From the NCBI GenBank assembly GCA_017539425.1, contig JAFYHA010000082.1, forward strand, positions 1-35,545: a stretch of DNA of 35,545 nucleotides, given 5' to 3'. The notes under the pieces are model-generated. The model did not search any database. It was given only the letters and a program-made list of their open reading frames with translations, and had not been told where the DNA came from. The stretch comes from Clostridia bacterium. GTDB lineage: Bacteria; Bacillota; Clostridia; Oscillospirales; CAG-272. A program made the translations under genes and the position numbers. This document shows positions 8,058-32,049 of this stretch, piece after piece (positions within the stretch are counted from its first letter, which is position 1; each line of letters begins with the position of its first letter).

Positions 8058-8077
8058 GGAACAGGCCGACACTCAGG

Positions 8078-8084
8078 AAAGGAG
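8078..8084 (+). promoter_or_regulatory. Ribosome binding site deciding the gdpP start
   Basis: AAAGGAG is 5 bases before TTG (8090) and 11 bases before ATG (8096), so TTG fits better. Confidence 0.5.
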
Positions 8085-8089
8085 AACGC

Positions 8090-10312
8090 TTGTCTATGTC
8101 ACAACATAAGAAATCCGGCGCGGACAGTATGGAGCCGTCTCCACGCCCGCTGCTTCTGACCGCTCCGCTGCTTGCGGTGGTGCTGATGCTGTTCATTCTG
8201 CTGATGTCCAACCTCATCCCGGCGCAGACCTCGCAATGGACGCTCCTGTCCGTTGCGGTCTACTTTGCGGTCATGGTCCCGATGCTCAGCGTGTACATTT
8301 CAAGATCGATCCGGGCCAGCCGCCTCAAGAAAGATCTTTCCACCTTCTCTTCCGGCCTCCTGGACACCGTGCAGAACGTGTCCGACCTGCCCTATTTCCT
8401 GCTGGACCCCGCGGACGGCGGAACGGTCAAGATGATGAGCAGCGCCATGCGCCGCCTGATCGACATCCGGAGCTGGACTCACAACTTCCCGCTTTCCGAC
8501 CTGAGCACGACCAGCGCCAGGCACATCTTCGCCAGCGCGGTATGCAGCCGGGAGGATATGCTGGACTCCTTCCGGAACGACTACGCCCGGCTTTTCCCGG
8601 ACGAACCGGATCCGGAAAAGGAACTTTCGGAAGCCGAACGGCAGAACGACGATTTTGCCAACGCGCTCCGGGCGGCCGGCAAGGATCCCCGCATGGGGCT
8701 TCCGATCAGCTCGTCCCGCTTTTTGATGCACGCCACGCCCCTCAGGGCTCACGAGCGGCCCTACTGCCTGGTCTGGCTGGACGATATGACCGATTACGTG
8801 AACCGCTTCGCCAAGGACGAGCGCGAGTATCCCATCATTGCCTACATCTATCTGGACAACCTCGAGGAACTCGCCCAGTACGTGGGCGTCACCGCCCGCT
8901 CCGCCTCCAGCAAGATCGAGGAGGAACTGAACAAATGGGCGACCGAGATCAACGGCCTGCTCCGCGAATATGACACGGACCGCTACCTGCTGGTCTTCCC
9001 CAAGGAGAATTTGCAGGGCCTGCTGGACAGCGGATTCGATATTCTGGAACGTGTCCACGCACTGGAACTCGGAGACAAATCGGTTCCTGCGACCATCTCC
9101 ATCGGTCTGGCCTCCACGGTCGGTTCGCTTCCTGACCGGAGCCGGGACGCACTGTTCGCCCTGGACATGGCGCTTCAGCGAGGCGGCGACCAGGCGGTGC
9201 TCCGTGCCCCGGCGGACGACGGAGGCACCCGTTACTTCGGCGGCCGCAACAAATCCATGGAAAAGGATATCTCCCGCAGCCTGCGGGTGACCAGCCAGGT
9301 CCTCTGCCAGCGCATCCGCACCGCAGAAAACATCCTGATCATGGGACACAAGAACCCGGACTACGACGCCCTCGCATCCTGTATCGGCGTGGCCCGCATG
9401 GCCATGTGCGTCAAGGGATCGCCGGATTCCATCCACATCGTGTCCGATATGGGCAACCCGGAATTCAACCAGTTCCGCGAGGCTCTGTCCGGCCTGCATG
9501 AATATGACAACATCTTCATCGCTTCGGACGCATCCACTGAATTCATCCGTCCGGACACGCTGCTCATCGTATGCGACGTCAACAACGTCAACATCACGGA
9601 GTCCCGGGACCTGATCCCTGCGGCCACCTGGGTCGTCTTCATAGACCACCACACGAGGCAGGCCGAATTCAACTTCACACCTGTGATCGAGATGATTCAG
9701 CCCCAGGCTTCCTCCGCCAGCGAACTGGTCGCCTGCATGCTCATGCAGAGCCCGTACTACGACAAGCTGACCAAGGAAGAGGCCACCCTGCTCCTGGCGG
9801 GCATCATGCTGGACACCAAGAATTTCGTGAACTCGACAGGCTGGCAGACCTTTGAGGCCGCCCAGTACCTGTATACCCGGAACGCGCACACCGACAAGGC
9901 CCGCGCCTATTTCCGGGAGACGATGGACGACATCGTCGTTTCCGGTCAGTTCGACCGTCTGTCCCGGACCTACCGCGGCTGCATCGCGGTCACCTGGCAG
10001 GTCTTCCGCAGACAGCTCAATTCCGCGGACAAGATCGCGGCCTCCAAAGCCGCCGACAAGCTCCTGACCGCGGACAACATCCGCGCCTCGTTCGCCATCG
10101 TGTACGCCGACAACGGCGTCGTGATCTCCGGACGTTCCTCGGATCCGACCATCAACGTCGGCACGATCCTTCGGGACCTGGGCGGCGGCGGCCATTTCGA
10201 TTCCGCCGGGACCCAGCTGCCGAGGACCTCGGTAGGCGACGTTGCCGCACAGCTGCGCACCGCCATAGACAAATACATGGACGGAACGCGCGCCACCAAA
10301 ACCAATTCGTGA
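8090..10312 (+). CDS. gdpP: Cyclic-di-AMP phosphodiesterase GdpP (DHH/DHHA1)
   Basis: This 740-residue membrane phosphodiesterase degrades c-di-AMP to pApA. Two transmembrane helices lie at ~20-42 and ~50-70, then a PAS-like region (~90-230), a degenerate GGDEF domain (~245-370) with no GGDEF motif, and a DHH domain with GHKNPDYDALAS (419-430), CDVNN (495-499), IDHHTR (518-523) and ASSASEL (540-546). DHHA1 follows, with GGGGHFDSAG near 697. The metal-binding Asp/His residues appear intact. GAG-rich ribosome site spacing favours TTG at 8090; ATG at 8096 is the alternative. It lies 32 bases after the DUF2232 gene and 10 before rplI, in the standard Bacillota order. Confidence 0.95.
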   Translation: MSMSQHKKSGADSMEPSPRPLLLTAPLLAVVLMLFILLMSNLIPAQTSQWTLLSVAVYFAVMVPMLSVYISRSIRASRLKKDLSTFSSGLLDTVQNVSDLPYFLLDPADGGTVKMMSSAMRRLIDIRSWTHNFPLSDLSTTSARHIFASAVCSREDMLDSFRNDYARLFPDEPDPEKELSEAERQNDDFANALRAAGKDPRMGLPISSSRFLMHATPLRAHERPYCLVWLDDMTDYVNRFAKDEREYPIIAYIYLDNLEELAQYVGVTARSASSKIEEELNKWATEINGLLREYDTDRYLLVFPKENLQGLLDSGFDILERVHALELGDKSVPATISIGLASTVGSLPDRSRDALFALDMALQRGGDQAVLRAPADDGGTRYFGGRNKSMEKDISRSLRVTSQVLCQRIRTAENILIMGHKNPDYDALASCIGVARMAMCVKGSPDSIHIVSDMGNPEFNQFREALSGLHEYDNIFIASDASTEFIRPDTLLIVCDVNNVNITESRDLIPAATWVVFIDHHTRQAEFNFTPVIEMIQPQASSASELVACMLMQSPYYDKLTKEEATLLLAGIMLDTKNFVNSTGWQTFEAAQYLYTRNAHTDKARAYFRETMDDIVVSGQFDRLSRTYRGCIAVTWQVFRRQLNSADKIAASKAADKLLTADNIRASFAIVYADNGVVISGRSSDPTINVGTILRDLGGGGHFDSAGTQLPRTSVGDVAAQLRTAIDKYMDGTRATKTNS

Positions 10313-10776: not shown

Positions 10777-12150
10777 ATGGCTGAATTTTCAGAATCCCTT
10801 CAGCAGATGCCGGCCAACATTCAGGCCGAGCAGTCCCTGCTCGGTTCGATCCTGTTGGATCCGAACAGCATCAATGAAGTTGCGTCCGTCCTGCACGCCG
10901 AGGATTTCTATCTCTCCTCCCATCAGGACATCTACCGGGCGATCCAGTCCCTGTTCCAGGAAAACAAGCCCATCGACATTTCCCTCCTGACCGAAAAGAT
11001 GAAAGAGCTGGGAGCCATCGAAAGCAAGGAGGAAGCCGAGCGCTACCTCCGTCCGCTGGTCGAGCACGTTCCCTCCAGCCGCAACATTTCGGACTACTGT
11101 CAGATCATCCGGGACAAAAGCCTTCTGCGCAGCCTGATCCGGGCTTCCGAACAGATCTCGGAGAAGGCCCACGACGAGCACGAGCCCGCCAAGGAGATCG
11201 TGGACTATGCCGAAACACTGGTCTATGACATCTCCAGGGACCGCGGCTCTCAGAATTTCCGCGATCTGCAGGAGATCATCAACTCCGTGTATGCGGAACT
11301 CCACAACATGTATGAAAGCGACGAGGATGTTCAGGGAGCCCAGACCGGTTTTTCCCACCTGGACCAGGTTCTGGCCGGCATCAACGAAACGGACTTCGTG
11401 GTCGTGGGCGCCCGCCCCGGCGTCGGCAAAACCAGTTTCGTGCTCAATATCGCCACCAACTACGCCAAAGCGCGCAAAGGCGCCGTGGCCATCTTCTCAC
11501 TGGAAATGAGCGCCGAGCAGCTCGTTTCCCGCATCCTCTCCAGCGAAGCCATGGTCGACAGCGTGGCCATGCGGACCGGCAAGCTCACGGAAAACGACTG
11601 GAACAGTCTGGCGCAGGCCTCGGAAGACCTGTACGGCTGCCGCATCCTGATCGATGACACAGCAGGCCAGACCGTCACGTCCATGAAAGCCAAGCTGCGC
11701 CGCATCCGCGAACCGCTCGGCATGGTCATCATCGACTATCTGCAGCTGATGCACGGCGAGACCCGGACCGAAAGCCGCGTGCAGGAGGTCTCCGAGATCT
11801 CCCGCGGGCTGAAACTGATGGCCAAGGAAATGAAGATCCCCGTCATCTGCTGCGCCCAGCTTTCCCGTGCTCCGGAAAGCGGCTCCGGTTCGTCCAGCCG
11901 CCCCCCGATGCTGTCCGATCTCCGTGATTCGGGCGCCATCGAGCAGGATGCCGACACGGTCATCTTCCTGTACCGTCCCAAGGCGGACAACAAGAAGGAA
12001 GAACAGGAAAACAACATTGTGAAGGTCTCCGTGGCCAAAAACCGTCACGGCGAGACCCGGACCATCGAACTGGGCTGGGCCGGCCGGTATACCAAATTCC
12101 GCACCCTGTCCAACACCGATCTCCAGAATCTCGTTCCTCCCGAACCATGA
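10777..12150 (+). CDS. dnaB: Replicative DNA helicase DnaB
   Basis: This 457-residue hexameric replication-fork helicase (called DnaC in B. subtilis) has an N-terminal domain (~12-115, PANIQAEQSLLGSILLD) followed by the RecA-like motor with Walker A GARPGVGKTS (211-220) and Walker B VIIDYLQLM (317-325). The DnaB C-terminal block LSDLRDSGAIEQDAD is present, and no intein is seen. ATG at 10777, seven bases after the rplI stop, is preferred over the in-frame GTG at 10756 inside rplI because the protein then starts just before the conserved region. Its stop overlaps the start of tilS (ATGA). Confidence 0.97.
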   Translation: MAEFSESLQQMPANIQAEQSLLGSILLDPNSINEVASVLHAEDFYLSSHQDIYRAIQSLFQENKPIDISLLTEKMKELGAIESKEEAERYLRPLVEHVPSSRNISDYCQIIRDKSLLRSLIRASEQISEKAHDEHEPAKEIVDYAETLVYDISRDRGSQNFRDLQEIINSVYAELHNMYESDEDVQGAQTGFSHLDQVLAGINETDFVVVGARPGVGKTSFVLNIATNYAKARKGAVAIFSLEMSAEQLVSRILSSEAMVDSVAMRTGKLTENDWNSLAQASEDLYGCRILIDDTAGQTVTSMKAKLRRIREPLGMVIIDYLQLMHGETRTESRVQEVSEISRGLKLMAKEMKIPVICCAQLSRAPESGSGSSSRPPMLSDLRDSGAIEQDADTVIFLYRPKADNKKEEQENNIVKVSVAKNRHGETRTIELGWAGRYTKFRTLSNTDLQNLVPPEP

Positions 12151-13622
12151 GCGTCCCTTTTGCAGACCTGCCTGGTTTCTGCGATCCGGTGTCGCTGTCC
12201 GGCCTGAGTCCGGACACGCCAGTACTGCTCGCCTATTCCGGCGGCGCCGACTCCGGCGCCCTGCTCCGTCTTCTGGTCAGGACCTGCCGCGTTCACGGCG
12301 CCCCTCTGACCGTCCTGCATGTCCAGCACGGCATCCGCGGAGAAGAAGCGCTGCGGGATCTGGAATTCTGCAGGTCGCAGGCCGAAGCCCTGGGCGTTCC
12401 GTTTCTCTTCCGGGAAACCGACGTACCGGCACTTGCGGCCAAACACGGGACGTCCTTGGAGACCGAGGCGCGTGACGCGCGCTACCGCCTTCTGGGGCAG
12501 GCCATGGACGAACTGGGCATTCCCATCCTGGTCACCGCGCATCACGCGGATGACAATCTGGAGACGGTTCTCTTCCGGATGGCCAGGGGCACGGGCCTCC
12601 AAGGCCTGTGCGGCATTGCCCCGGTGCGGCCGTGTCCGGAACTGTGCGCCCTGCCCGGCGCCGTTCTGATCCGCCCGCTCCTGCACGTTTCGAAAATGGA
12701 CATCCTGGACTATTGTGTCCGGGAGAAGATCCCCTTCGTGGAGGATTCGACCAACGCGGAAGACGGCTGCACCCGCAACCGGCTCCGTCACACGGTCCTG
12801 CCTGCACTGAAGCAGGTGTTTCCGCAGGTCGATGAGGCCGTAGCCGCGCTTTGCGACCGGCTCCGCGAAGATGACTCCGTTCTCAAAGACGTCACCGAAC
12901 AGGCGCTTGACGGGTGCGCATCCTGGATCTTAGGACGTTTCCGTATCCGTCTTGACGCTTTTCAGGATCAGCCTCCCGCCCTGCGGGCCCGGATTCTCCG
13001 GGAACTGGCGGTCCGTTCCGGCCTTCCGCTTCCGGAATCCATCCATCTGGAACCTCTTTTGAAAGGAGACCCGGCTTTTCTGACCCGGACCGACTGGCCC
13101 GGCGGAGTCCGGATCCTGAAATCCGGAAAGCACCTGTGCATCGGACTTGCCGAGGATCAGAGTCTTCTGTTTCCGCCCGGGTATCTGAGGCTTGGAGTTC
13201 AGGACTATCCCGAACTTCTCCTGCGGATCTCCGTCTCCGAGGCCGTCTGCCCGGATGCGTTTGCCCGGGTTCCTTCCCCTTCTTCAACTTCCGAAAAAGA
13301 TTTTTTCCGTTATTCCACCACAGCGTATCTCAAATATGCTATGATGGAGCATCCCTCACCTCTGATGTGGAGAAGCCGGCTTCCCGGCGATACGCTGCGC
13401 CAGGGAGGACGGACGCTGGATGTCCGGAAACTGCTTACCGATGCCCGCATCCCGGCGGACTGCCGGTCCGGACTTCCCGTTCTGACCGACGGAGAGACCG
13501 TTTTCTGGGTCCCGCTGCCCGGCACCCCCGGCGGAAGGATCGCGGACGGCCTGTCCCCGCTTCCGGGTGAGAAGTGCCTCAAGCTGACCGTTGACTATCA
13601 TGCCTACTGGCGCGAAAAATAA
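12147..13622 (+). CDS. tilS: tRNA(Ile)-lysidine synthase TilS
   Basis: TilS converts C34 of the CAU-anticodon tRNA(Ile) to lysidine using ATP. Of 491 residues, the N-terminal PP-loop ATPase carries SGGADS (31-36) and HHADDNLET (132-140), with the family segment EDSTNAEDGCTRNRLRH after the second half of the domain. The C-terminal substrate-binding domains cover ~240-491 and are poorly conserved, as usual. It is translationally coupled to dnaB by a 4-base overlap and followed by hpt and ftsH. Confidence 0.95.
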   Translation: MSVPFADLPGFCDPVSLSGLSPDTPVLLAYSGGADSGALLRLLVRTCRVHGAPLTVLHVQHGIRGEEALRDLEFCRSQAEALGVPFLFRETDVPALAAKHGTSLETEARDARYRLLGQAMDELGIPILVTAHHADDNLETVLFRMARGTGLQGLCGIAPVRPCPELCALPGAVLIRPLLHVSKMDILDYCVREKIPFVEDSTNAEDGCTRNRLRHTVLPALKQVFPQVDEAVAALCDRLREDDSVLKDVTEQALDGCASWILGRFRIRLDAFQDQPPALRARILRELAVRSGLPLPESIHLEPLLKGDPAFLTRTDWPGGVRILKSGKHLCIGLAEDQSLLFPPGYLRLGVQDYPELLLRISVSEAVCPDAFARVPSPSSTSEKDFFRYSTTAYLKYAMMEHPSPLMWRSRLPGDTLRQGGRTLDVRKLLTDARIPADCRSGLPVLTDGETVFWVPLPGTPGGRIADGLSPLPGEKCLKLTVDYHAYWREK

Positions 13623-16362: not shown

Positions 16363-17643
16363 TTACGGATTGGTCACGGTCCCGATGAAGACCGGAAGCA
16401 TATTGGCCGTATCCACGATCGCATACACGAACGGACGGTTCAGGATGACTTTCGGTTTTTCCTCCGGCTTGGTGCTGGATTCCCTGTCTACGATCACGGA
16501 CGTTACCGCAGCGGCACTCGTTCCGGATTGGTCCACCTCGATATGCGTCTTGTGAATGACATCCGATATGCAGAACGATGCATAGGAATCATACGTGCCC
16601 AGCCCGGACAGGTCCGAACGGGCGGGATCAAAGCAGTCCGTAAGGCCCATACCCTTCAGGGTCTCCACCAGCGACGCGGACCAGTCGAACGAAAACTTGG
16701 GCAGGCCCGTGTCCACGCTCCGTCTCTGCATTCCGTCCATCAGTCCGGTGAAGCGGGTCCCGTCCAGCGTCGCAAGATAGCTGTCCAGGCTCATCCCGCT
16801 TTCCGGAAGCAGCGCGACGAATGCGTAGCCGCCCTGATAATACTTGAAGAATCCGGTCTCGTGTTCACCTTTGATGAATCTTTGCCCTTCGCAGTACATC
16901 ATGGTCACGTCCTTGACCGTTCCGTTTTCGGCCGTGTAAAAGACTTCGGTGCGGCACTGACCTTCCTCATAAGGGCTGCTCCAGAGCGCGTCGAACAGGA
17001 TGGCGTTGAGCAGGACCATGGTCGTATCCACGCCCACATCGTTATACTTAAGGATCTCCGGGATCATGTCGTCCGTATGTTTCCGGCACCAGTCGTTGAT
17101 CGCGTCGACCGTCTTCGGGTCGGTGAACGAAGCCTGCGCCAGCTGGGCATCGAAGGTATTCGAGATCACCCGGATAAACTCTTCGGCCACTTTGAAATTC
17201 TCATCGTTGGTCATCCAGACCGCGTTGGCCGCCTCGAACTTCGCGTCCTTGCTGGCCGCGTCGTTCAGGGACCGGTAGTAGTTGAACAGTTCCCGGTTGA
17301 GCGTCTCCACGTCCATGTTCCCGCCCAGCAGCTTTTCAAACTGTCTGAGCGTTTCCCCCTTTGCCCCGTTGGCCGCCATCTGGAGGGCGGTCATCACGGA
17401 CAGGGGCGAGACCAGGCGGCCTTTCAAATCCTGGCTGGCCTTGAGCAGCCGGATCGCGAAATCCGCATAGGCGTTCCGGAAATCCGCGCCGACTTCCCCG
17501 GCCACACGGTCACTGGAAAACTCCTCCGCGGTCAGAAACGTAACGTCCGACGCGGCGTCAGGCTGACTGGGCGGCACAGCGCATCCGAACAGGTTGCACC
17601 CCAGAAGGCAGACGGTCACAAACAGTATCAGTGCTTTTCTCAT
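16363..17643 (-). CDS. Serpin-family serine protease inhibitor lipoprotein
   Basis: This 426-residue protein is clearly a serpin (suicide inhibitor of serine or cysteine proteases). Landmarks are SPLSVMTALQMAANGAKGETL (79-99), TGLPKFSFD (312-320), the helix-like block around 330-349, the hinge GTSAAAVT (374-381), and the C-terminal NRPFVYAIVDTANMLPVFIG (402-421). The hinge has the small residues required for loop insertion, so it is predicted inhibitory. The N-terminus is a signal sequence with lipobox LFGC (Cys21; LLGC at 13-16 is an alternative), so it should be anchored outside the membrane. Counting from the hinge, P1 is near Glu388, with Ser389 as P1'. It starts 2 bases after the VWA gene and is the last gene of the sigma operon. 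Confidence 0.95.
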   Translation of the reverse strand: MRKALILFVTVCLLGCNLFGCAVPPSQPDAASDVTFLTAEEFSSDRVAGEVGADFRNAYADFAIRLLKASQDLKGRLVSPLSVMTALQMAANGAKGETLRQFEKLLGGNMDVETLNRELFNYYRSLNDAASKDAKFEAANAVWMTNDENFKVAEEFIRVISNTFDAQLAQASFTDPKTVDAINDWCRKHTDDMIPEILKYNDVGVDTTMVLLNAILFDALWSSPYEEGQCRTEVFYTAENGTVKDVTMMYCEGQRFIKGEHETGFFKYYQGGYAFVALLPESGMSLDSYLATLDGTRFTGLMDGMQRRSVDTGLPKFSFDWSASLVETLKGMGLTDCFDPARSDLSGLGTYDSYASFCISDVIHKTHIEVDQSGTSAAAVTSVIVDRESSTKPEEKPKVILNRPFVYAIVDTANMLPVFIGTVTNP

Positions 17644-17645
17644 AA

Positions 17646-19259
17646 CTATCCCGCTTTCTTGGAATTCTCGTTCAATTTCCGGATCAGGGTAAAGAACTCA
17701 TAGAAATCCGGGTTTTCCGGATTGTCAAACGCCTCCAGATCCGAGGCTTGCTCCAGGATCCAGTCCAGGCTTGCCGATTTGGGAAGATATCCGCTTCCGT
17801 TCAGCCACATGCTCGTTTCGATCACGATGCCCAGGAACCGGAACGTTTCGCTTCCGGTCTTCCGGTAGGCTCCCGCGCCGATCTCATATTCGTTGAGCCG
17901 GCTCTGCGTCTGACCGGGATCCTTGTAGCGGACCGCCAGTTTCATCCAGTTCGCCGTTCCGCCCAGTTCGTCCTTGGCCTTCTGGGTCAGACGGATCTGG
18001 TAAGCCACCGTCACCGTGTGTCCGGTTCCGACTTCTCCGGCATCCTTGGTGTCGTCTTCAAAGTCCTCGTTGTTCAGGGCTCTGTTCTCGTAGCCGATCA
18101 GGCGGTAGGCCTCGATGTACTGCGGGTCAAAGGTCAGCTGCAGTTTCACGTCGTCCGCCACCGTATACAGGGTGGAAGCCAGCTCGGTCCCGAAGACGCG
18201 CTCCGCCTCGCGGTCGGAGTCGATGTAGTAGTAGACACCGTTTCCTTTATCCGCCAAGGTCTCCATGACCTCGTCCCGGAAATTGCCGTATCCGAACCCG
18301 AGTACGGAGAGATAGACGCGTTCCTTGCGCATGTTCTCAATATACTCCTGCAGCTCTTCGACCGATGACAGTCCGACGTTGAAGTCGCCGTCCGATGCCA
18401 GGATGATCCGGTTGTTGCCGTCTTCCTTGAAGAAGTCCCGGGCTACGGAATAGGCCGTCTGCAGTCCTCTTTCACCATAGGTGGCACCGCCGGCCTCCAG
18501 GGAGTTGACCGCTTCCAGGATCCGGGCCGTCTGATTGCCCGGACAGCCGGCCAGAACGGTCTTGCAGTTCGAGGCATAGGTCACGATGGATACCGTGTCC
18601 TGTTCGGTCAGGTTTACGGTCAGATACCGGAATGCTTTCTTGAGCAGCTCGATCCGGTCCGCTCCGTTCATGGAGCCGGACACGTCAACGAGAAAGACAT
18701 AGTTCCCCGGCTTCTTTTCCGTATCTTTCTTTGTCGCCAGGTTCAGGATCAGCAGTTCGGAATCGGCGCCCCAGGGACAGGGTGCGATCTCGGCGGTCAC
18801 GCCGAACAGGTCGTCCCCTTCCGGCTGCTTGCCCGCAATGCGGAAGTAGTTGATCATTTCTTCCGTCCGGAACACAAACTGGTTGCGGATGAAGGATTCC
18901 GAATAATTGTCTTCGATCAGCCGGCGAAGGATCGTATAGGACGCGGTATCCACATCGGCAGAGAACGTGGACTGCGCCTCCTCGGCCGCGTTCGTCCACG
19001 GATACTCGCTAAGCGGTGTCCGCTCTATCGAATCCTCCGGCACCTTGGAGGGGTTGGAGACACTGGTTGCGTCAGTCTCTTTCGGTGTACCCTCGCGCTC
19101 AGGCAGTGCATAATTGGCTTTTTCGGCAGGACTCCCAGGATAGACTATTCCGCCTTGCTGGTTGTCCATGCATTCCATCTTACCGGCCGCTCCGCATGCC
19201 GTCAGAATACCGGCCAGGCAAAGCACTGCCGTCAATACGGTCCAAATGTTTCTTTTCAT
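17646..19259 (-). CDS. VWA-domain lipoprotein (YfbK-like, von Willebrand factor type A)
   Basis: This 537-residue secreted lipoprotein has a signal peptide with lipobox LTAC (Cys22), a Ser/Thr/Pro-rich linker to ~95, an N-terminal accessory region (~95-180: FSADVDTASYTILRR), a VWA domain (~185-355) and a C-terminal DUF3520-like region. The MIDAS metal site looks intact: DVSGS (192-196), T260 and D290. ATG at 19259 is chosen because AGGAGG (19268-19273) sits 8 bases upstream; an in-frame upstream ATG (19307) lies inside the anti-sigma gene. Members of this family often neighbour ECF sigma genes. VWA domains usually mediate protein-protein contacts; the partner here is unknown. Confidence 0.9.
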   Translation of the reverse strand: MKRNIWTVLTAVLCLAGILTACGAAGKMECMDNQQGGIVYPGSPAEKANYALPEREGTPKETDATSVSNPSKVPEDSIERTPLSEYPWTNAAEEAQSTFSADVDTASYTILRRLIEDNYSESFIRNQFVFRTEEMINYFRIAGKQPEGDDLFGVTAEIAPCPWGADSELLILNLATKKDTEKKPGNYVFLVDVSGSMNGADRIELLKKAFRYLTVNLTEQDTVSIVTYASNCKTVLAGCPGNQTARILEAVNSLEAGGATYGERGLQTAYSVARDFFKEDGNNRIILASDGDFNVGLSSVEELQEYIENMRKERVYLSVLGFGYGNFRDEVMETLADKGNGVYYYIDSDREAERVFGTELASTLYTVADDVKLQLTFDPQYIEAYRLIGYENRALNNEDFEDDTKDAGEVGTGHTVTVAYQIRLTQKAKDELGGTANWMKLAVRYKDPGQTQSRLNEYEIGAGAYRKTGSETFRFLGIVIETSMWLNGSGYLPKSASLDWILEQASDLEAFDNPENPDFYEFFTLIRKLNENSKKAG

Positions 19260-19263
19260 GATT

Positions 19264-19908
19264 CTAACCTCCTGACAAGAATTGTCTGCATGCATCCACA
19301 AATGCATCTGAAGGGATGAGCTCGGGAACGTAGTCCTGAAGTCTCAGGAAATCCTCGTTGCCCTTGCCCTGTCTGAGATAGGGGGTTTGCACGGTTCCGT
19401 CCGGTTTCACCAGCCACACGCGAACATCCGGTCTGTTTTCGGTGTTCCCGGCCATGTGGCCCTGCGGGATCATGGCCTCCAGCCGGTCGATCTGCTCGGG
19501 AGTCAGCACGTGGAAATAGCAGGGTCCGTTTTCTTCCATCTGCCAGATCAGTCCGGTTGCACCGGGCTGCAGACGGCAGGACTGTGCGTTCTCACTCAGC
19601 ACATCCGCCTTCTCTGCGTCAGAAAGAAGGATATCCTTCATAGGATCCGCGCTTTTGTCTCCGGGCAGTTCCGAACTCTTTCCGGGGGTCTCTTTCTCCG
19701 GAAGGACCGGGGCGCTCCGCTTCGGCAGCAGGACGGACAGGACCGCGACCAGAACGACCAGGACGGCCACGGCCGCAGCGATGGGAAGAATTCGGCGCAG
19801 GGGCCTGATTTGGACCGAACGGTTTTCAGGTTCGGCTTCCGCAATGAACTCGGGGTCGATTTTCCCGAACGCCTGAAACAGTTCTTCTGTTTTTTTCTCG
19901 TTCTTCAC
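19264..19908 (-). CDS. Putative membrane-bound anti-sigma factor
   Basis: This 214-residue single-pass protein has a short cytoplasmic N-terminus (1-38, beginning MKNEKKTEELFQAFGKIDPE), one transmembrane helix (~40-61) and an extracytoplasmic domain (~62-214). The start overlaps the ECF sigma stop by 4 bases (ATGA), the usual arrangement of a sigma/anti-sigma pair. No zinc (ZAS) motif is seen in the N-terminal part. The role is inferred from topology and neighbourhood; I do not recognise the outer domain. Confidence 0.7.
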   Translation of the reverse strand: MKNEKKTEELFQAFGKIDPEFIAEAEPENRSVQIRPLRRILPIAAAVAVLVVLVAVLSVLLPKRSAPVLPEKETPGKSSELPGDKSADPMKDILLSDAEKADVLSENAQSCRLQPGATGLIWQMEENGPCYFHVLTPEQIDRLEAMIPQGHMAGNTENRPDVRVWLVKPDGTVQTPYLRQGKGNEDFLRLQDYVPELIPSDAFVDACRQFLSGG

Positions 19909-20465
19909 AGGACATGTCCTCCTTTCCGCAGAATCTGGTAGAGCGACTCCCGCAGCCGGCTCAGGATTTTCCGCACGTTCGGCTCACTGTATCCGGTCTC
20001 GCGGGCGATGTCCGCCGTGGCTTCCGAATAGTAATACCGCTTGACGAAGATGATCCGCTTGTCCTTGGGCAGGTTCCGCAGAAAGCCGTTGAGCGTTTCG
20101 GCCAGCGCTTCGCTGTTTTCCTCTTCGAACAGTGCCGGTTCGTCCTCATCCGGAATGCATGCGTCCAGTTCCTCCAGAACATTCCCGAACCCGCCCCGTT
20201 TTTCACGGTGCGCGTCCCGGTAACGCCTATAGGAAAGGTTTCGGATGATGGCGGCCAGGTAGGTGAAGAAGTAGACCGGTCGGTCGGGAGGAATCTGGTT
20301 CCAGGCCGCAAGGTAGGTGTCGTCCGCACATTCTTCCGCATCTTCTCTAGACGAAAGGATCCCGTAGGATATGGCTTTCAGTCTCCGCCCGTATTTACGG
20401 TCGGTCTCTGCGATGGCGGTTTCGTTTCTGGCGAAGAACAACTCCACGATGGCTTGGTCTTCCAT
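19905..20465 (-). CDS. ECF-type RNA polymerase sigma factor
   Basis: This 186-residue sigma-70 family factor of the ECF group has region 2 in the first ~95 residues (with DAEECADDTYLAAWNQIP) and region 4 at ~130-180, a helix-turn-helix around TADIARETGYSEPNVRKILS. ATG at 20465 is chosen; the in-frame upstream extension to 20564 reads through the probable promoter and lacks family similarity, while AAGGGG precedes 20465. It should direct transcription of its own operon (anti-sigma, VWA protein, serpin), and possibly distant targets, when the anti-sigma is inactivated. Confidence 0.9.
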   Translation of the reverse strand: MEDQAIVELFFARNETAIAETDRKYGRRLKAISYGILSSREDAEECADDTYLAAWNQIPPDRPVYFFTYLAAIIRNLSYRRYRDAHREKRGGFGNVLEELDACIPDEDEPALFEEENSEALAETLNGFLRNLPKDKRIIFVKRYYYSEATADIARETGYSEPNVRKILSRLRESLYQILRKGGHVL

Positions 20466-20503
20466 ATGTCCCCCTTTCCCTTTTCTCAGCCCTTTCACTT
20501 TCA

Positions 20504-20534
20504 GATGTACCCGCGCATCCCGGTTTTGTGACAG
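20504..20534 (-). promoter_or_regulatory. Candidate autoregulated ECF promoter
   Basis: On the minus strand CTGTCACAAA (20525-20534) resembles a TGTCACA-type ECF -35 element. It is followed after about 14 bases by GTACATC (20504-20510), about 40 bases before the sigma ATG. No good sigma-A promoter is visible here. This is pattern resemblance only. Confidence 0.35.
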
Positions 20535-20562
20535 CTTCACGAAAAGATTTTTCGCTTTTTTC

Positions 20563-20588
20563 AAAAAGCCGGGCTCCGCGCCCGGCTT
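20563..20588 (-). terminator. Intrinsic terminator after the cyclophilin gene
   Basis: A 9-bp stem, AAGCCGGGC/GCCCGGCTT (20566-20588), with a 5-base loop. On the minus strand it runs into TTTTTG. It separates the cyclophilin operon from the downstream sigma operon. Confidence 0.85.
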
Positions 20589-23318: not shown

Positions 23319-23882
23319 ATGTCCGATTTCAATCAGTACGAATATGTGGTTTCTGACAAACAGAACCCGTCCAGAAAATGGCAGAAGGTACTTATGATCC
23401 TCGGATATATCGCAGTGGATGCCGGCCTCTTTTTTCTGCTTCTGCAGATCAACCCGTTCCTCATTGCCCTTCTGGCGCTGACGACCTGGGTGATGGTGTT
23501 CTTTACCTGGCGCTACCTGAATGTGGAATACGAGTATTCCATTGTCTCCGGTATCCTGACCTTCACCCGCATCCTCGGCAACCGCAGCCGCAAAGAGGTC
23601 TTCTCGGTTCCGGTCAAGGACATTTCGGTCATTGCCCCGCTGGGCGATTCGGACGAGGAGATCAAGCGCTTCGCTCCGGAGAAATACTGCTATGCCGTCC
23701 CGAAGCTGGACTTTCCGGACGTCTGCTATGCCCTGCTGGAAACTGGGAAACCGGATAAGCCGAAGAAAAAGACCGTATTCTTCTTCCAGTCCACCCCGCA
23801 GAGTCTGCGCATCCTGCGCTTCTACAATCCTTCGGCCGTGAGCGGCCGGTTTTCACCCACATCCTTTTCCAACGAGGTCTGA
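23319..23882 (+). CDS. DUF6106-like small membrane protein
   Basis: This 187-residue protein has a short N-terminal tail, two adjacent transmembrane helices (~23-42 and ~46-65) and a soluble C-terminal domain that resembles a bacterial PH-like barrel (NVEYEYSIVSGILTFTRILG, then SVPVKDISVIAPLG). I match it to the DUF6106 group found in Clostridia; function is unknown. It is the first gene of an operon and ends 3 bases before the GtaA-like gene. Confidence 0.65.
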   Translation: MSDFNQYEYVVSDKQNPSRKWQKVLMILGYIAVDAGLFFLLLQINPFLIALLALTTWVMVFFTWRYLNVEYEYSIVSGILTFTRILGNRSRKEVFSVPVKDISVIAPLGDSDEEIKRFAPEKYCYAVPKLDFPDVCYALLETGKPDKPKKKTVFFFQSTPQSLRILRFYNPSAVSGRFSPTSFSNEV

Positions 23883-26952: not shown

Positions 26953-29208
26953 ATGCTGCCTTTAAACACGTTTGAAAAACATGCCGAGATCGCCGCGGTC
27001 TTCCGAGAACACGGCGTTCCCGAAGATCAGATTTATTTTGCCTTCCAGGAAGACCTGACCTGCGACGGACTTTTCGGTGAGGAATGGCTGGCCATCAGCA
27101 AGGATGGACAGTTTCTTTACCGTTATTCTGCCGCAAGTCAGGCTTTTGACGTTTTCACCCTTTCCGACCTGGAAGAACCCTATATCGACAATTACACCAC
27201 GTCCAACCGGATCCTGGCCTACATCAAGGACGAAACCGGAAACCGGAAGACGATTGTCCTGGGTGCCTGCACAAACGGATGCAAGCGCCGGATGAACGCC
27301 TTTATGAATATGTGGGACCGGGTCACCAAAGGACTGGAGATCAAGGAAGACGACGCCATCTTTGAACAGTTCAACGCACGCTGCCCCAAGTGCGGGACCG
27401 TGTATCCGGACCAGCAGCGCCGGATCTGCGAAGTGTGCGCGAAAAAGAAAGGGACTCTGGTCCGGCTTCTCTCCTATTTCGGGGATTTCAAGCTCCAGTT
27501 CGCGACCGTCCTGATCTGTCTGGTCCTGACCTCGGCCATTTCGCTGGTCGGACCGATCATCAGCGGCCAGGTGCTCTATGACCGGGTCATCGATCCGGCA
27601 GGTCCCCTTCATGAGGTCCGCTACGTATTCATCTTCGTGGGCGTCCTGTTCGGCCTGGCCCTGCTCCAGCTGTTTATCGGGATCATCCAGAACCGGGCAA
27701 ACGCGCACATGTCCACCCACGTGACCAAGCGCATGAAGGATGACATCTTCACCGCGCTCAGCAAGCTGTCCGTTTCCTATTTCAACCAGAACTCGACCGG
27801 ACGGCTGATCAACCGGGTCAACTATGACGCGGTCCGCGTGCAGAGTTTCTACATCGACGGCGTTCCGGCCCTGATCATCAACGGGCTGAACTTCATCGGC
27901 CTCGCGATCTTTTTGTTCATCATCAACTGGAAACTGACCCTCATCGTGTTCGCGCCTGTCCCGGTCATCGTCATCATGTTCAAACTGATGCTTCCCAAAC
28001 TCTGGCGCTCGTTCTCCAAACTCTGGCGCCGGTCCTCCTCGATGAACGGTATGCTGGCCGATACCCTCAACGGCGCCCGGGTCGTCAAGGCCTTCGCCAA
28101 GGAGCCGGAAGAGGCCAACCGGTTCCACCTATACGCGCACAAACTGTACAGCGCGTCCATGAACGCGAACAAGATCATCATCATGATCTTCCCCGTCATC
28201 GCCCTGCTCATCGGTATGACGGCACAGGCCATCTGGGGATTCGGCGGCATCATGGTCATGAACCAGGAGATGACATACGGTCAGCTGACGACCTATTTCG
28301 GGTATCTCGGCATGATCTTCGGGCCCCTCGGGTTCTTCTCCACCTTCACAAACCTGATCACCGACACGATCAACTCCGCGTCCCGTATGTTCGAGACCCT
28401 GGATCAGATCCCGGAGATCACGGACGCTCCGGACGCAATCGAGGCCGATCACTTCAGGGGCGAGGTCGTATTCGACCACGTGTCCTTCCATTACAATCCG
28501 AGCAGCCCGATCCTGAAGGACATTTCCTTTACGATCCACGAGGGTGACAACGTCGGCGTGGTCGGGCACACCGGAAGCGGCAAGTCCACCATCGCCAACC
28601 TGATCACCCGCATGTACGATACCGTCAGCGGTACGGTCCTGATCGACGGTGTGGATATCCGAAAATACAAGCAGGCCTCCCTGCACAAGAATATCGCGAT
28701 CGTGTCCCAGGAGATCTATCTGTTCACCGGAACCATCGCGGACAACATCCGCTACAGCAAACCGGACGCTTCCCTGGGCGAGATCATCGCGGCCGCCCGC
28801 GCGGCCAACGCGCACGATTTCATCATGCAGCTTCCGGAAGGCTATGAGACGATGGTCGGATCCGGAAACCGCTCCCTGTCCGGCGGTGAACGCCAGCGCA
28901 TCTCGATCGCCCGGGCGCTGTTGCTCCAGCCTTCCATCCTGATCCTGGACGAGGCCACGGCGGCAATGGACAACGAGACCGAGCGCCTGATCGGCGAAGC
29001 GATCGACAAGCTGGTCAAGGGCCGGACCACGATCACCGTGGCCCACCGGCTGTCCACCCTGCACAACTGCAACGTCATCATGGCCGTCGAGAACGGCGAA
29101 GTGGTGGAAATGGGCAGCCCGCACGATCTGATGGAACAGAAAGGCGACTATTACAAACTCTATACTCTGCAGAATGACCAGATGCAGCAGGTCATGACGG
29201 GCAACTAG
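26953..29208 (+). CDS. ABC exporter with N-terminal PH-like and zinc-ribbon modules (DUF1854-associated)
   Basis: This 751-residue half-transporter is unusual for its long soluble N-terminus (1-~165): a PH-like barrel-like part, then a CxxC-x11-CxxC zinc ribbon (C144, C147, C159, C162). A type I ABC exporter membrane domain with about six helices follows (~170-470), then the ATPase domain with Walker A GHTGSGKST (538-546), signature LSGGERQ (642-648), Walker B ILILDEAT (662-669) and H-loop AHRLST, all canonical. ATG is set by AAGGAG six bases upstream; the longer ORF to 26527 reads through the previous gene. It lies 21 bases before the DUF1854 gene. Related transporters are named for cyanophycin loci of Betaproteobacteria (from memory); no cyanophycin gene is in view. 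Substrate unknown. Confidence 0.9.
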   Translation: MLPLNTFEKHAEIAAVFREHGVPEDQIYFAFQEDLTCDGLFGEEWLAISKDGQFLYRYSAASQAFDVFTLSDLEEPYIDNYTTSNRILAYIKDETGNRKTIVLGACTNGCKRRMNAFMNMWDRVTKGLEIKEDDAIFEQFNARCPKCGTVYPDQQRRICEVCAKKKGTLVRLLSYFGDFKLQFATVLICLVLTSAISLVGPIISGQVLYDRVIDPAGPLHEVRYVFIFVGVLFGLALLQLFIGIIQNRANAHMSTHVTKRMKDDIFTALSKLSVSYFNQNSTGRLINRVNYDAVRVQSFYIDGVPALIINGLNFIGLAIFLFIINWKLTLIVFAPVPVIVIMFKLMLPKLWRSFSKLWRRSSSMNGMLADTLNGARVVKAFAKEPEEANRFHLYAHKLYSASMNANKIIIMIFPVIALLIGMTAQAIWGFGGIMVMNQEMTYGQLTTYFGYLGMIFGPLGFFSTFTNLITDTINSASRMFETLDQIPEITDAPDAIEADHFRGEVVFDHVSFHYNPSSPILKDISFTIHEGDNVGVVGHTGSGKSTIANLITRMYDTVSGTVLIDGVDIRKYKQASLHKNIAIVSQEIYLFTGTIADNIRYSKPDASLGEIIAAARAANAHDFIMQLPEGYETMVGSGNRSLSGGERQRISIARALLLQPSILILDEATAAMDNETERLIGEAIDKLVKGRTTITVAHRLSTLHNCNVIMAVENGEVVEMGSPHDLMEQKGDYYKLYTLQNDQMQQVMTGN

Positions 29209-29229
29209 GCAGAGCGGAAGGAGATCACC

Positions 29230-29793
29230 ATGGAAGATATGGAACTTGAGAACCTGTTTGAACGGCGGGAGTCCGTGCGTCTGACACCCGAAAACGCCGT
29301 GTTCACCCGCTCGGAAGGCGGTCTGATCTCGTTAAGGCTGTCCCACCCGGAAGCGCCCGAAAAGGAAGAGGAGTTCTTTGAACGCGTCATTCCGCTCCGG
29401 GGTTTCCCGATCACCGATCCTGAGCAGTTCATCTCGGTCCGGGAGCCGGACACCAAGGAAAAGGGCCGCGGCGCGGAGATCGGCATCATCTATGACCTTG
29501 CCGAATTCGACGAAGCCCAGCAGACCCTGCTCCGTTCCGAACTGGACCGTCACTACTTCACCCCGGAACTTCTGAAGATCTACAGCGTGAAGGAAAAGTT
29601 CGGCTACCTGTATTTCGAGACCGAGACCAGCGCCGGCAAGACCTCTTTCGTCATGAACAATCCGTATTCCAATTTCCGGTCTTTTGAAGACGACCGGATA
29701 TTCCTGTATGACATCGACGGAAACTGTTTCCAGATTTCCGATCCCTCCAAGCTGGACAAAGCCAGCTACAAGCGAATCGAGATCTATCTCTGA
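29230..29793 (+). CDS. DUF1854 family protein
   Basis: This 187-residue soluble protein matches the DUF1854 pattern: ERVIPLRGFPITDP (54 to about 67), EIGIIYDL, a HYFTPELLKIYSVKEKFGYLYFETET core (about 107-135) and the C-terminal DIDGNCFQI. The family has no known activity and always occurs beside ABC transporters of the type found here. AAGGAG sits 6 bases before the ATG. It lies between the two exporters, with gaps of 21 and 12 bases, so it is probably an obligate partner, such as a regulatory or adaptor subunit for the ATPases. Confidence 0.88.
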   Translation: MEDMELENLFERRESVRLTPENAVFTRSEGGLISLRLSHPEAPEKEEEFFERVIPLRGFPITDPEQFISVREPDTKEKGRGAEIGIIYDLAEFDEAQQTLLRSELDRHYFTPELLKIYSVKEKFGYLYFETETSAGKTSFVMNNPYSNFRSFEDDRIFLYDIDGNCFQISDPSKLDKASYKRIEIYL

Positions 29794-29805
29794 TCTGGAG
29801 GCGTT

Positions 29806-32004
29806 ATGAAACTGTATTATGCCCTTCCCGCCGACGACAAGAAGGCCCTGCCGCCTTTGCTGCCCGGCGAGAAGAAAATGTACTGCCTGCCCTACAACTA
29901 TGAGGACGCCAGAAACGTGAACGGCTTCATGCTGTTCACGAACCGGCGCATCTTCAAGCTGCGGGACGGCGCGCTCCTGGACACCTGGGACGTCTCCCGC
30001 ATGAGTTCCTTCTCTGTCGAGAAGATGTTCGGCTGCAGCGGGCTGTATGCCAAGGTGGACGGGATCACGACCTGTCTGTGCCTGTTCAACTCCGGCCGAA
30101 ACCTGCCCCGCTATTCGGTCATCGTTTCGTCCTATGAGAACATCACGCAGCGGGGCGACGACCGGGTCCTCGTCAGCAACGAGCCCGAGCGGTTCTGCCC
30201 GAAATGCGGACGGCCGTTCATCAAGCACACCAAGCTGTGCCCGTTCTGCCAGAGCAAGGGCAAGATCTATAAGAAACTCTGGGGCATGACCCGCGGCCTG
30301 AGACTCATGCTGCTCTTCCCGCTGGTCGCCGCGATAATCTCGCTGGTGCTGCGGTTCGTGGTCCCGGCCATCCAGCGCGTCGCCATCGACCGGTATATCA
30401 TACCCCGGAACATCGACGGCCTGCAGGGCTTCATCCTGGTCATCCTGGCCATCATCGGATGCGACCTGTTCGCCCGGTTCATATCGGTCATCCAGTCCCG
30501 GATCTCCGCGACCTCGGCCAACCGGTTCACGCTGATGCTCCGGTCCATCCTGTTCGAGAAGATCCAGTCCCTGTCCATTGCGTCCATCCACAAGAAGTCA
30601 ACCGGCGACCTGATGGGCCGGATCAACAATGACGTCAACGTGGTGCAGAATTTCATCACCAACCTGCTCCCGTCCTACCTGACCCAGATCCTGTCCTTCA
30701 TCCTGGCTCTCGTGATCCTGATCTACATGAACCCGCTCCTTTGCCTGTTCGTCTTCATTCCGATCCCGTTTGCCGTCGTATTCATCCTGCTCTTCCGCAA
30801 GACCATGTCGAGGCGGAACATCCGCGCGTGGGTGCTGGCCCGCCGGACCAACGCCCAGCTCCAGGACACCCTGGACGGCATCCGCGTCGTCAAGACCTAC
30901 GGCAATGAAGAGGCGGCCGTCCGGGATTTCACGACCAATACGGGCAACCAGTCCCGCCAGGACGAGAGCAACGCCAAACTGTTCGATACCGTCTTCCCCT
31001 TTGTCGGGTTCGTACTCCGGCTGGGCAGCTACCTGATCACCCTGTTCGGCAACCTGTGGGTCTTCCACGGCACGATGCAGGTCGGCGAACTGAGCCAGTT
31101 CGGCAGCTACTCCGGCATCATTTACGAACCGATCATGCAGATCACGTCCATCCCCCGCAACATCTCCGCATTCTCCACGTCCCTAGGCAAGATCCTTGAA
31201 CTTCTGGAAGAGGATCCCGACGTATACGATTACAGTTCCCCGGACTACAAGCGTCTGGAAGGTCATGTCTCCATCCGCGACGTAACGTTCGGTTACGACA
31301 GTTACAACCCGGTCCTGGAGCACATCAACCTGGAGGTGAACCAGGGCGAGATGATCGGCATCGTCGGCCATTCCGGCTGCGGAAAGACCACGCTGATCAA
31401 CCTGATCATGAGGCTGTACGACGTCACGGAAGGCAGCATCCTGATCGACGGTGTGGACGTGCGTGCCATGTCCCAGAACAGCCTGCGGACACAGATGGGT
31501 GTGGTCTTGCAGGAGACGCACCTGTTCTCCGGCTCCATCCGGGACAACATCCGCTACGCGATGCCCAACGCCTCCAACGAGGAGGTCGTCCGGGCCGCGA
31601 AGCTGGCCAATGCCCACGATTTCATCGTCCGGCTGCCGGAAGGTTACAATACGATGGTCGGGGAAAAGGGTTATTCCCTGTCCGGCGGCGAACGCCAGCG
31701 CGTGGCGATCGCCCGCGCCCTGATCCACAATCCCCGCATCCTGATTCTGGACGAGGCCACCGCAGCCCTGGATACCGAGACCGAAAAGCTGATCCAGGAC
31801 GCGATCGACCGCGTCATAACCGGACGCACGACGTTCGTCATCGCACACCGGCTGTCCACGCTCCGCAATGCGGACAAGATCCTGGTGCTCGACCACGGAA
31901 AGATGGCCGAATTCGGCACACACAAGGAACTGCTGGATATGCAGGGCATCTATTACAAACTGGTCATGTCCCAGGTCCGGCAGCAGCAGGAATCCGGGAA
32001 ATAG
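29806..32004 (+). CDS. Second ABC exporter with PH-like and zinc-ribbon N-terminus
   Basis: This 732-residue half-transporter has the same plan as the first: a soluble N-terminus (1-~125) with a PH-like fold suggested by NVNGFMLFTNRRIFKL (38-53), a zinc ribbon CxxC-x10-CxxC (C131, C134, C145, C148), an exporter membrane domain (~165-460) and an ATPase with Walker A GHSGCGKTT (521-529), signature LSGGERQ (625-631), Walker B ILILDEAT (645-652) and H-loop AHRLST. Both ATPases are catalytically complete, so a heterodimer with two active sites or two homodimers is possible. It ends the operon; a terminator follows 15 bases later. Confidence 0.9.
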   Translation: MKLYYALPADDKKALPPLLPGEKKMYCLPYNYEDARNVNGFMLFTNRRIFKLRDGALLDTWDVSRMSSFSVEKMFGCSGLYAKVDGITTCLCLFNSGRNLPRYSVIVSSYENITQRGDDRVLVSNEPERFCPKCGRPFIKHTKLCPFCQSKGKIYKKLWGMTRGLRLMLLFPLVAAIISLVLRFVVPAIQRVAIDRYIIPRNIDGLQGFILVILAIIGCDLFARFISVIQSRISATSANRFTLMLRSILFEKIQSLSIASIHKKSTGDLMGRINNDVNVVQNFITNLLPSYLTQILSFILALVILIYMNPLLCLFVFIPIPFAVVFILLFRKTMSRRNIRAWVLARRTNAQLQDTLDGIRVVKTYGNEEAAVRDFTTNTGNQSRQDESNAKLFDTVFPFVGFVLRLGSYLITLFGNLWVFHGTMQVGELSQFGSYSGIIYEPIMQITSIPRNISAFSTSLGKILELLEEDPDVYDYSSPDYKRLEGHVSIRDVTFGYDSYNPVLEHINLEVNQGEMIGIVGHSGCGKTTLINLIMRLYDVTEGSILIDGVDVRAMSQNSLRTQMGVVLQETHLFSGSIRDNIRYAMPNASNEEVVRAAKLANAHDFIVRLPEGYNTMVGEKGYSLSGGERQRVAIARALIHNPRILILDEATAALDTETEKLIQDAIDRVITGRTTFVIAHRLSTLRNADKILVLDHGKMAEFGTHKELLDMQGIYYKLVMSQVRQQQESGK

Positions 32005-32019
32005 GTTTTCCAACATCCC

Positions 32020-32049
32020 GAGGCGCGGTTCTCCGCGCCTCCTTTTCTT
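32020..32049 (+). terminator. Intrinsic terminator after the ABC/DUF1854 operon
   Basis: A 9-bp stem, GAGGCGCGG (32020-32028) with CCGCGCCTC (32033-32041), and a 4-base loop, followed by CTTTTCTT. Confidence 0.85.

Follow-up and report, generated by a model that had tools for sequence, protein, structure and literature searches.

The closest named relatives of the system reported here are covered by two protein models with a cyanophycin name, NF052233 for an ATP-binding cassette (ABC) exporter and NF052234 for a protein of the DUF1854 family (PF08909), a family for which a search by sequence found no solved structure. Exporters made of two different half-transporters, each with an ABC_membrane and an ABC_tran domain, are represented by TM287/288, which has a non-canonical ATP site according to the accessible part of the source (PMC5216877). 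In leaderless bacteriocin export, where a system that includes an ABC transporter depends on PH-like parts, export of enterocin DD14 is lost when either of the PH-domain proteins DdE or DdF is deleted, as stated in the accessible part of that article (PMC8657885). Here we analyse 35,545 nucleotides of a Clostridia bacterium (contig JAFYHA010000082.1, assembly GCA_017539425.1), hereafter the window, in which three plus-strand genes stand in a tight row: a first exporter (ABC1), a DUF1854 gene and a second exporter (ABC2), with gaps of 21 nt and 12 nt between the open reading frames (ORFs).

ABC1 and ABC2 scored 520 and 512 bits with NF052233, whose cut-off is 880, and the match covered their front ends as well (profile positions 29-749 and 30-749 of 766); the DUF1854 protein scored 69 bits with NF052234, for a cut-off of 150. 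These are the best named models, though below their cut-offs, and the original prediction was right to see the nearest named relatives as cyanophycin-linked. It was also exact in the coordinates of the two exporters around DUF1854, and the Pfam families were confirmed. The window nevertheless differs from the system described by the two models, in its scores, in its two exporters and in a genome (2.1 Mb, 90.4% complete, so that a gene may have been missed) where no cyanophycin genes were found. Its DUF1854 protein is a clear member of PF08909 (E=1.3e-36, 125.8 bits, gathering cut-off 26.8). ABC_membrane and ABC_tran both score above the Pfam cut-offs on each exporter chain, which places the two among type IV (ABCB-like) exporters, and TM_0288 is one of the closest half-size PDB matches of ABC1. 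Unlike TM287/288, the window pair has both catalytic glutamates. To our knowledge, TM287/288 is also without a PH-like or zinc-ribbon front end. Nearer in composition are modules of the same phylum, and one on a Gemmatirosa plasmid, in which an exporter with a front end adjoins DUF1854; these differ from the window in having a single exporter, presumably working as a homodimer.

We think it probable, from comparative sequence evidence, that the three genes encode one heterodimeric ABCB-type exporter, with DUF1854 as a dedicated cytosolic third subunit that would dock the cargo or gate its access. The multi-part transporter put forward in the original prediction is well supported by the fixed gene order, by joint inheritance, by a fusion of ABC1 to DUF1854 in one relative, and by a front end that tracks DUF1854.

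Gene order was examined in two surveys. The first took in 40 stretches (39 with DUF1854, and L079, a cyanophycin synthetase locus), the window and 20 stretches of the phylum, giving 60 loci. An exporter lay on both sides of DUF1854 in 43 of them, and 17 had one exporter; among the latter, L080 is truncated at the start of its contig, where the upstream exporter would be, and L143 and L149 have their own exporter cut. The second survey kept 80 loci of 424 relatives in public genomes and added the window (81 loci; it overlaps the first in species). Exporters were found within 500 nt on both sides in 70 of the 81, and in 70 of these 70 the upstream one was ABC1-like and the downstream one ABC2-like. 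Seven of the remaining 11 lie at a contig edge (L153, L173, L203, L205, L206, L226, L227), and in L218 and L219 the upstream exporter is farther away. At L145 (7244-10318), ABC1 and DUF1854 form a single reading frame of 1024 residues, a natural fusion, followed by an ABC2 with the signature LSVGERQR. Two-exporter and one-exporter copies occur together in nine genomes (G028, G035, G116, G138, G157, G183, G196, G234, G394; coexisting pairs include L050/L051, L058/L059, L060/L061, L131/L132, L134/L135 and L145/L146), and for this reason the two kinds of module are probably not interchangeable. When the 497 ORFs of at least 80 aa within 5 kb of the 60 loci were clustered, the largest family, generic ABC ATPases, was present in 7 loci and the next ones in 4. 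The neighbour survey that the original prediction had proposed as a check therefore gave exporters flanking DUF1854 in fixed order, and outer genes that are not conserved.

A tree was built from 75 exporters, 69 from 42 chosen loci and six others of the window genome (two pairs of rows were identical). All 69 DUF1854-linked exporters formed one group apart from the other six (100/100), inside which ABC1 (28 sequences) made one clade and ABC2 (28 sequences) another, each at 100/100. Ten of the 13 one-exporter proteins branched below ABC1 and ABC2 together, and the other three (L133, L137, L140) were placed on the side of ABC1, weakly supported (93/86). Over 90 distinct tricistrons, the distance matrices of ABC1, DUF1854 and ABC2 correlated at 0.94-0.98, compared with at most 0.15 after shuffling of labels. 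The three genes are thus inherited jointly. Because there are two sister clades, one-exporter forms mostly below them and mirrored distances, the history would be explained most simply by one old duplication of the exporter in an exporter and DUF1854 module, followed by inheritance as a unit.

Both exporters begin with about 125-140 residues followed by a CxxC...CxxC zinc ribbon, ahead of the first membrane helix. The ribbon reads CPKC-x11-CEVC in ABC1 and CPKC-x10-CPFC in ABC2, and in the 90 tricistrons its cysteines are 98-100% conserved per exporter; outside the ribbon, conservation of at least 90% was reached in the front ends only at D34 of ABC1 and at G40 and G76 of ABC2. Among relatives, the ribbon pattern was present in the first 330 residues of 89/92 ABC1, 90/92 ABC2 and 15/16 exporters of the one-exporter class (L080 counted). 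Of the ABC1 misses, L053 carries the ribbon further in, L185 is truncated at a contig end and L159 is without explanation, as are the two ABC2 misses, L059 and L214. Within the window genome, which gave 14 membrane-domain matches in total, the two window exporters are the only ones with a ribbon among the eight whose whole frame is readable. The ribbon, for which the original prediction suggested a role in substrate capture or regulation, is not universal to DUF1854-linked exporters, since the Gemmatirosa plasmid copy, the sole one read from outside the phylum, has none. This copy matches NF052233 over its full length, front end included (625 bits), and its front end taken alone matches that of ABC1 weakly (35%, hhalign).

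To compare the front ends, alignments were made from 63 of 73 ABC2 and 45 of 63 ABC1 sequences, near-copies and partial ones being dropped. The two are homologous (hhalign 99.5%, E 4.9e-23; 97.3%, E 2.1e-11 with the ribbon excluded), and those of the phylum's one-exporter modules (15 sequences, ribbon excluded) match both ABC1 (99.0%) and ABC2 (98.8%). Four of ten one-exporter front ends, out of the 16 in the class, matched bPH_3 (PF14470) in the Pfam scan, the best with E 6.8e-4 and scores up to 20.5 bits for a gathering cut-off of 23. Among the 63 ABC2 front ends, 2 matched bPH_3 and 3 matched PH_PLEKHM2, at marginal E-values; for the 45 ABC1 front ends no PH family was found among the matches listed (25 of 72 Pfam families), and bPH_3 gave no match in the Pfam scans of the window exporters themselves. 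The original prediction of a PH-like module and a ribbon before the membrane domain was correct for the ribbon; for the PH-like module the matches are weak or marginal, and we consider a PH-like fold of the front ends likely, not proven. Whatever its fold, the front end follows DUF1854: in a family sample of 146 genomes, the ABC2 front-end profile matched all 109 genomes having DUF1854 (weakest match 1.9e-7), and 11 of the 37 others (best 7.2e-6).

The ATPase motifs are intact in both window exporters (Walker A/B, signature and H-loop), as had been predicted. Counts among relatives were restricted to exporters of 600 aa or more. Walker A is kept in 92/92 ABC1 and 91/92 ABC2, Walker B with its glutamate in 92/92 and 91/92 (the exception reads IMILDEAT), and the H-loop in 92/92 of both. 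The catalytic glutamate is thus present in the two window exporters and in all 184 ABC1 and ABC2 counted among relatives, one of them as a pattern variant, so that neither half lacks it as in a heterodimer with one degenerate ATP site. Since Walker A, the Walker B glutamate and the H-loop are kept in nearly all relatives, the ABC1-ABC2 pair should have two working ATP sites. In each exporter, four segments were hydrophobic enough to pass the hydropathy threshold, which missed some helices; in these segments the only charged residues conserved above 80% in the 90 tricistrons are K180 and D302 of ABC1. Because both stand at segment ends, a non-polar or amphiphilic cargo is suggested. A defence system was considered and rejected: PADLOC matches (best 110 bits, mad3) were confined to the ATPase domain, and DUF1854 had none.

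For DUF1854, 19 diverse members share invariant residues at F59, P60, E83, Y109, P112, G125, D161, N165, I169, L175, D176 and S179. These do not look like a catalytic set, and from this we infer that DUF1854 is a binding subunit. No second Pfam family was common to all 19 members scanned (Spa1_C appeared in 5, best 0.01). Using an alignment of 71 of 78 sequences, with near-copies and partial ones dropped, we rejected a kinship of DUF1854 with the PH-like module (hhalign 0.1-0.2%). A known fold was not recognised by sequence either, no PDB match being convincing. Partial distance correlation with the exporter parts placed DUF1854 closest to the PH parts in the window-like set (51 tricistrons) and to the ABC1 membrane domain in the rest (39). 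A tblastn search of plasmids gave no match for the window protein or for a second query, and one Gemmatirosa record for a third. DUF1854 was not mentioned in the literature searched, a search that most subscription papers fell outside. Among 14 control genomes, only that of the archaeon Sulfolobus acidocaldarius had a DUF1854 match over the cut-off. In G094 (C5:63297-63686) and G076 (C18:9872-10327), a TAA codon falls within the DUF1854 match of one relative and within the ABC2 front-end match of the other, which could be decay or assembly error.

In the machine that we propose, ABC1 and ABC2, born of the old duplication, would join into an ABCB-type heterodimer, an exporter in which both ATP sites are catalytically competent. 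DUF1854 would sit with the PH-like/zinc-ribbon front ends beneath the membrane domains, this assembly docking the cargo or gating access, and ATP binding and hydrolysis would drive a hydrophobic or amphiphilic cargo outward. Several points weigh against this picture. In the first survey, 16 of the 60 loci (L080 excluded) have DUF1854 with a single exporter, so a second exporter is not always needed; in the public set, the related loci L208 and L216 (about 6900-9880) have DUF1854 and an ABC2-like exporter, and no upstream exporter within 7 kb. The one-exporter forms L133, L137 and L140 might be later exporter losses instead of the ancestral form. Shared species history yields part of the 0.94-0.98 distance correlation. 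The ABC2 signature deviates from LSGGxxQR in 9 of 92 relatives, in seven by its first letter only, in one as LSVGERQR and in one by escaping the pattern. The two subsets analysed by partial correlation disagree on where DUF1854 is placed, and the suggestion on cargo is partial, as it comes from only four hydrophobic segments per exporter.

The names of the best models raise the question of whether the operon is a transporter related to cyanophycin, for its building blocks or for the dipeptides released on its breakdown. The nearly full-length match to NF052233, together with NF052234, speaks for it; both scores, however, are below cut-off, and a genome-wide profile search of the window genome, 90.4% complete, found neither a cyanophycin synthetase (the best score was 45 bits, for a cut-off of 850) nor any match to cyanophycinase. 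The original prediction had remarked on the absence of cyanophycin genes. The absence stands but is not unusual, as in the family sample DUF1854 is present in 109 of the 146 genomes and the synthetase in 1 (counted at E <= 1e-60, the best five candidates being scored per genome). In that one genome, G063, DUF1854 is present too, on contigs other than that of the synthetase locus, L079. Across the phylum, 398 genomes were sampled, among them that of the window; DUF1854 was found in 20 and the synthetase, counted at E <= 1e-100, in 122, of which 116 were over the cut-off. Only G516 had both, on different contigs: the synthetase was found in 1 of 20 genomes with DUF1854 versus 121 of 378 without, a difference in the direction of avoidance whose Fisher p=0.011 is indicative, as the genomes are not independent. 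The annotation of two plasmid cyanophycin loci contained neither DUF1854 nor an exporter of this kind, the 18 kb read of the Gemmatirosa plasmid gave no match to cyanophycin synthetase, and in a survey of cyanophycin genes (PMC10206079) the word ABC is absent from the accessible part of the main text. Absence of cyanophycin genes beside DUF1854 is therefore the rule in family and phylum. Because DUF1854 and the synthetase hardly meet in these samples, the cyanophycin name misleads for this exporter family here; we reject the link for this lineage, where the idea is largely refuted and appears very improbable.

Two other readings amount to the proposed exporter with its cargo named. It may be an MsbA-like flippase of lipids or envelope precursors, with front ends that bind membrane lipids or sense them. 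PH-like folds can bind lipids, conserved charges are few in the hydrophobic segments, and after the cyanophycin-named model the best one for ABC1 is the lipid A flippase model MsbA_lipidA (TIGR02203; 428 bits, and 399 for ABC2). The curated cut-off is 602, though, and other exporter models score almost equally. The operon type is kept in 109 of the 146 family genomes, without fixed neighbours, which speaks for this reading, but 37 do without DUF1854; likewise, a PF04018 gene (undecaprenyl phosphate translocase-like) lies 41 nt downstream in L144, with clustered relatives near L053 and L138, yet a few such neighbours would be expected by chance among the 497 ORFs. We regard this flippase as possible and on the whole unlikely. 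A drug or peptide efflux pump, or one for self-protection, whose PH-like parts act as in leaderless bacteriocin export, seems to us rather unlikely. The need for DdE and DdF in enterocin DD14 export and the presence of a MarR-family gene 10 nt ahead of L148, a one-exporter relative, point that way. On the other hand, no conserved peptide or regulator gene was found beside the operon among ORFs of at least 80 aa, a size limit that a small peptide gene could escape, and DdE and DdF are separate membrane proteins with a known peptide cargo, not fused front ends; the accessible part of the article does not mention DUF1854 or a ribbon (PMC8657885), and we take the resemblance as an analogy only. 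Our first guesses at the cargo are a lipid or envelope precursor and a hydrophobic drug or peptide. It would be a greater departure if ABC1 and ABC2 were independent homodimers that merely share an operon, with DUF1854 a separate enzyme or regulator. One-exporter forms presumably work without a sister exporter, which would agree with it; the strict order, the mirrored histories, the ABC1-DUF1854 fusion and the genome-level co-occurrence make it improbable.

Returning to the heterodimer with DUF1854, we suggest, more tentatively and with somewhat more doubt than belief, that it stands for a distinct class of ABC exporters with a permanent third subunit. In such a class, a vestibule on the cytosolic side, built from the paired PH/zinc-ribbon front ends and DUF1854, would choose the cargo and pass it on to a heterodimer whose two ATP sites are both active. 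The design would have arisen a single time, from a module with one exporter, and would have been retained in Clostridia of gut and rumen. The parts belong to known families; the paired arrangement, the separate clades, the independence from cyanophycin and the matched front end were undescribed in the literature searched, with most subscription papers again outside it. If this is true, DUF1854 gains a role and, in this phylum, the cyanophycin label on the exporter family has to be corrected; an export machine that is common among uncultured Clostridia of gut and rumen, and that seems not to have been studied, becomes testable as well. A heterodimer with two active sites, having one-exporter relatives near its base, would also be a natural case for the evolution from homodimer to heterodimer.

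Table 1. Coordinates of the operon and of its parts in the window
Feature	Position	Strand	Remarks
Exporter 1 (ABC1)	26953..29208	+	751 aa, ATG at 26953; type IV (ABCB-like) exporter half
ABC1 front end, weakly PH-like module	26953..27366	+	about residues 1-138; homologous to ABC2 front end
ABC1 zinc ribbon	27382..27438	+	C144, C147, C159, C162
ABC1 membrane domain (PF00664)	27508..28329	+	Pfam
ABC1 ATPase (PF00005)	28513..28962	+	Walker A/B, signature, H-loop present
DUF1854 protein	29230..29793	+	187 aa; PF08909 match 29377-29781
Exporter 2 (ABC2)	29806..32004	+	732 aa
ABC2 front end, weakly PH-like module	29806..30183	+	about residues 1-126; profile comparisons
ABC2 zinc ribbon	30196..30249	+	C131, C134, C145, C148
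ABC2 membrane domain (PF00664)	30322..31131	+	Pfam
ABC2 ATPase (PF00005)	31315..31764	+	Walker A/B, signature, H-loop present
Terminator-like hairpin	32020..32041	+	9 pairs then T-rich tail; starts 16 nt past ABC2

The hairpin past ABC2 has the longest stem of the five sites of its type found in the window scan; the shuffle mean being 4.9, there is no excess of such sites, and its role as terminator of the operon is suggestive only. No promoter-like site was found in the same scan. The closest public copies of the operon are in metagenome bins, uncultured Ruminococcus sp. RUG14240 (DUF1854 identity 82%) and Clostridia bacterium RGIG3668 from goat rumen (69%). Upstream of the window operon lie phosphoesterase and glutaminase-like genes, which recur, in the loci searched, only in the two relatives of the genus; the Cthe_2159-like gene found downstream recurs in just one of the two. 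Elsewhere, in one other family (f63), the tricistron of three genomes from two genera (L138, L141, L144) is preceded, at 14-16 nt, by a UvrD-type helicase gene on the same strand.

Some other genes of the window were recorded. A 187-aa protein at 23319-23882 (+), without a Pfam match, seems by eye to have two membrane helices and a PH-like part; it has relatives close to DUF1854 loci of the same genus, in L070, which shares its contig with L186, and in L172. The TilS-like gene at 12147-13622 (PF01171 and TilS_C) contains, within its coding frame, an ARAGORN call of tRNA-Trp (cca) at 12573-12642 (+), which is probably a false call. A bacterial serpin at 16363-17643 (-) (PF00079, E 1.1e-79) adjoins a YfbK-like VWA protein at 17646-19307; near them, at 19905-20564, is the gene for a protein of ECF size with a sigma-70 region.

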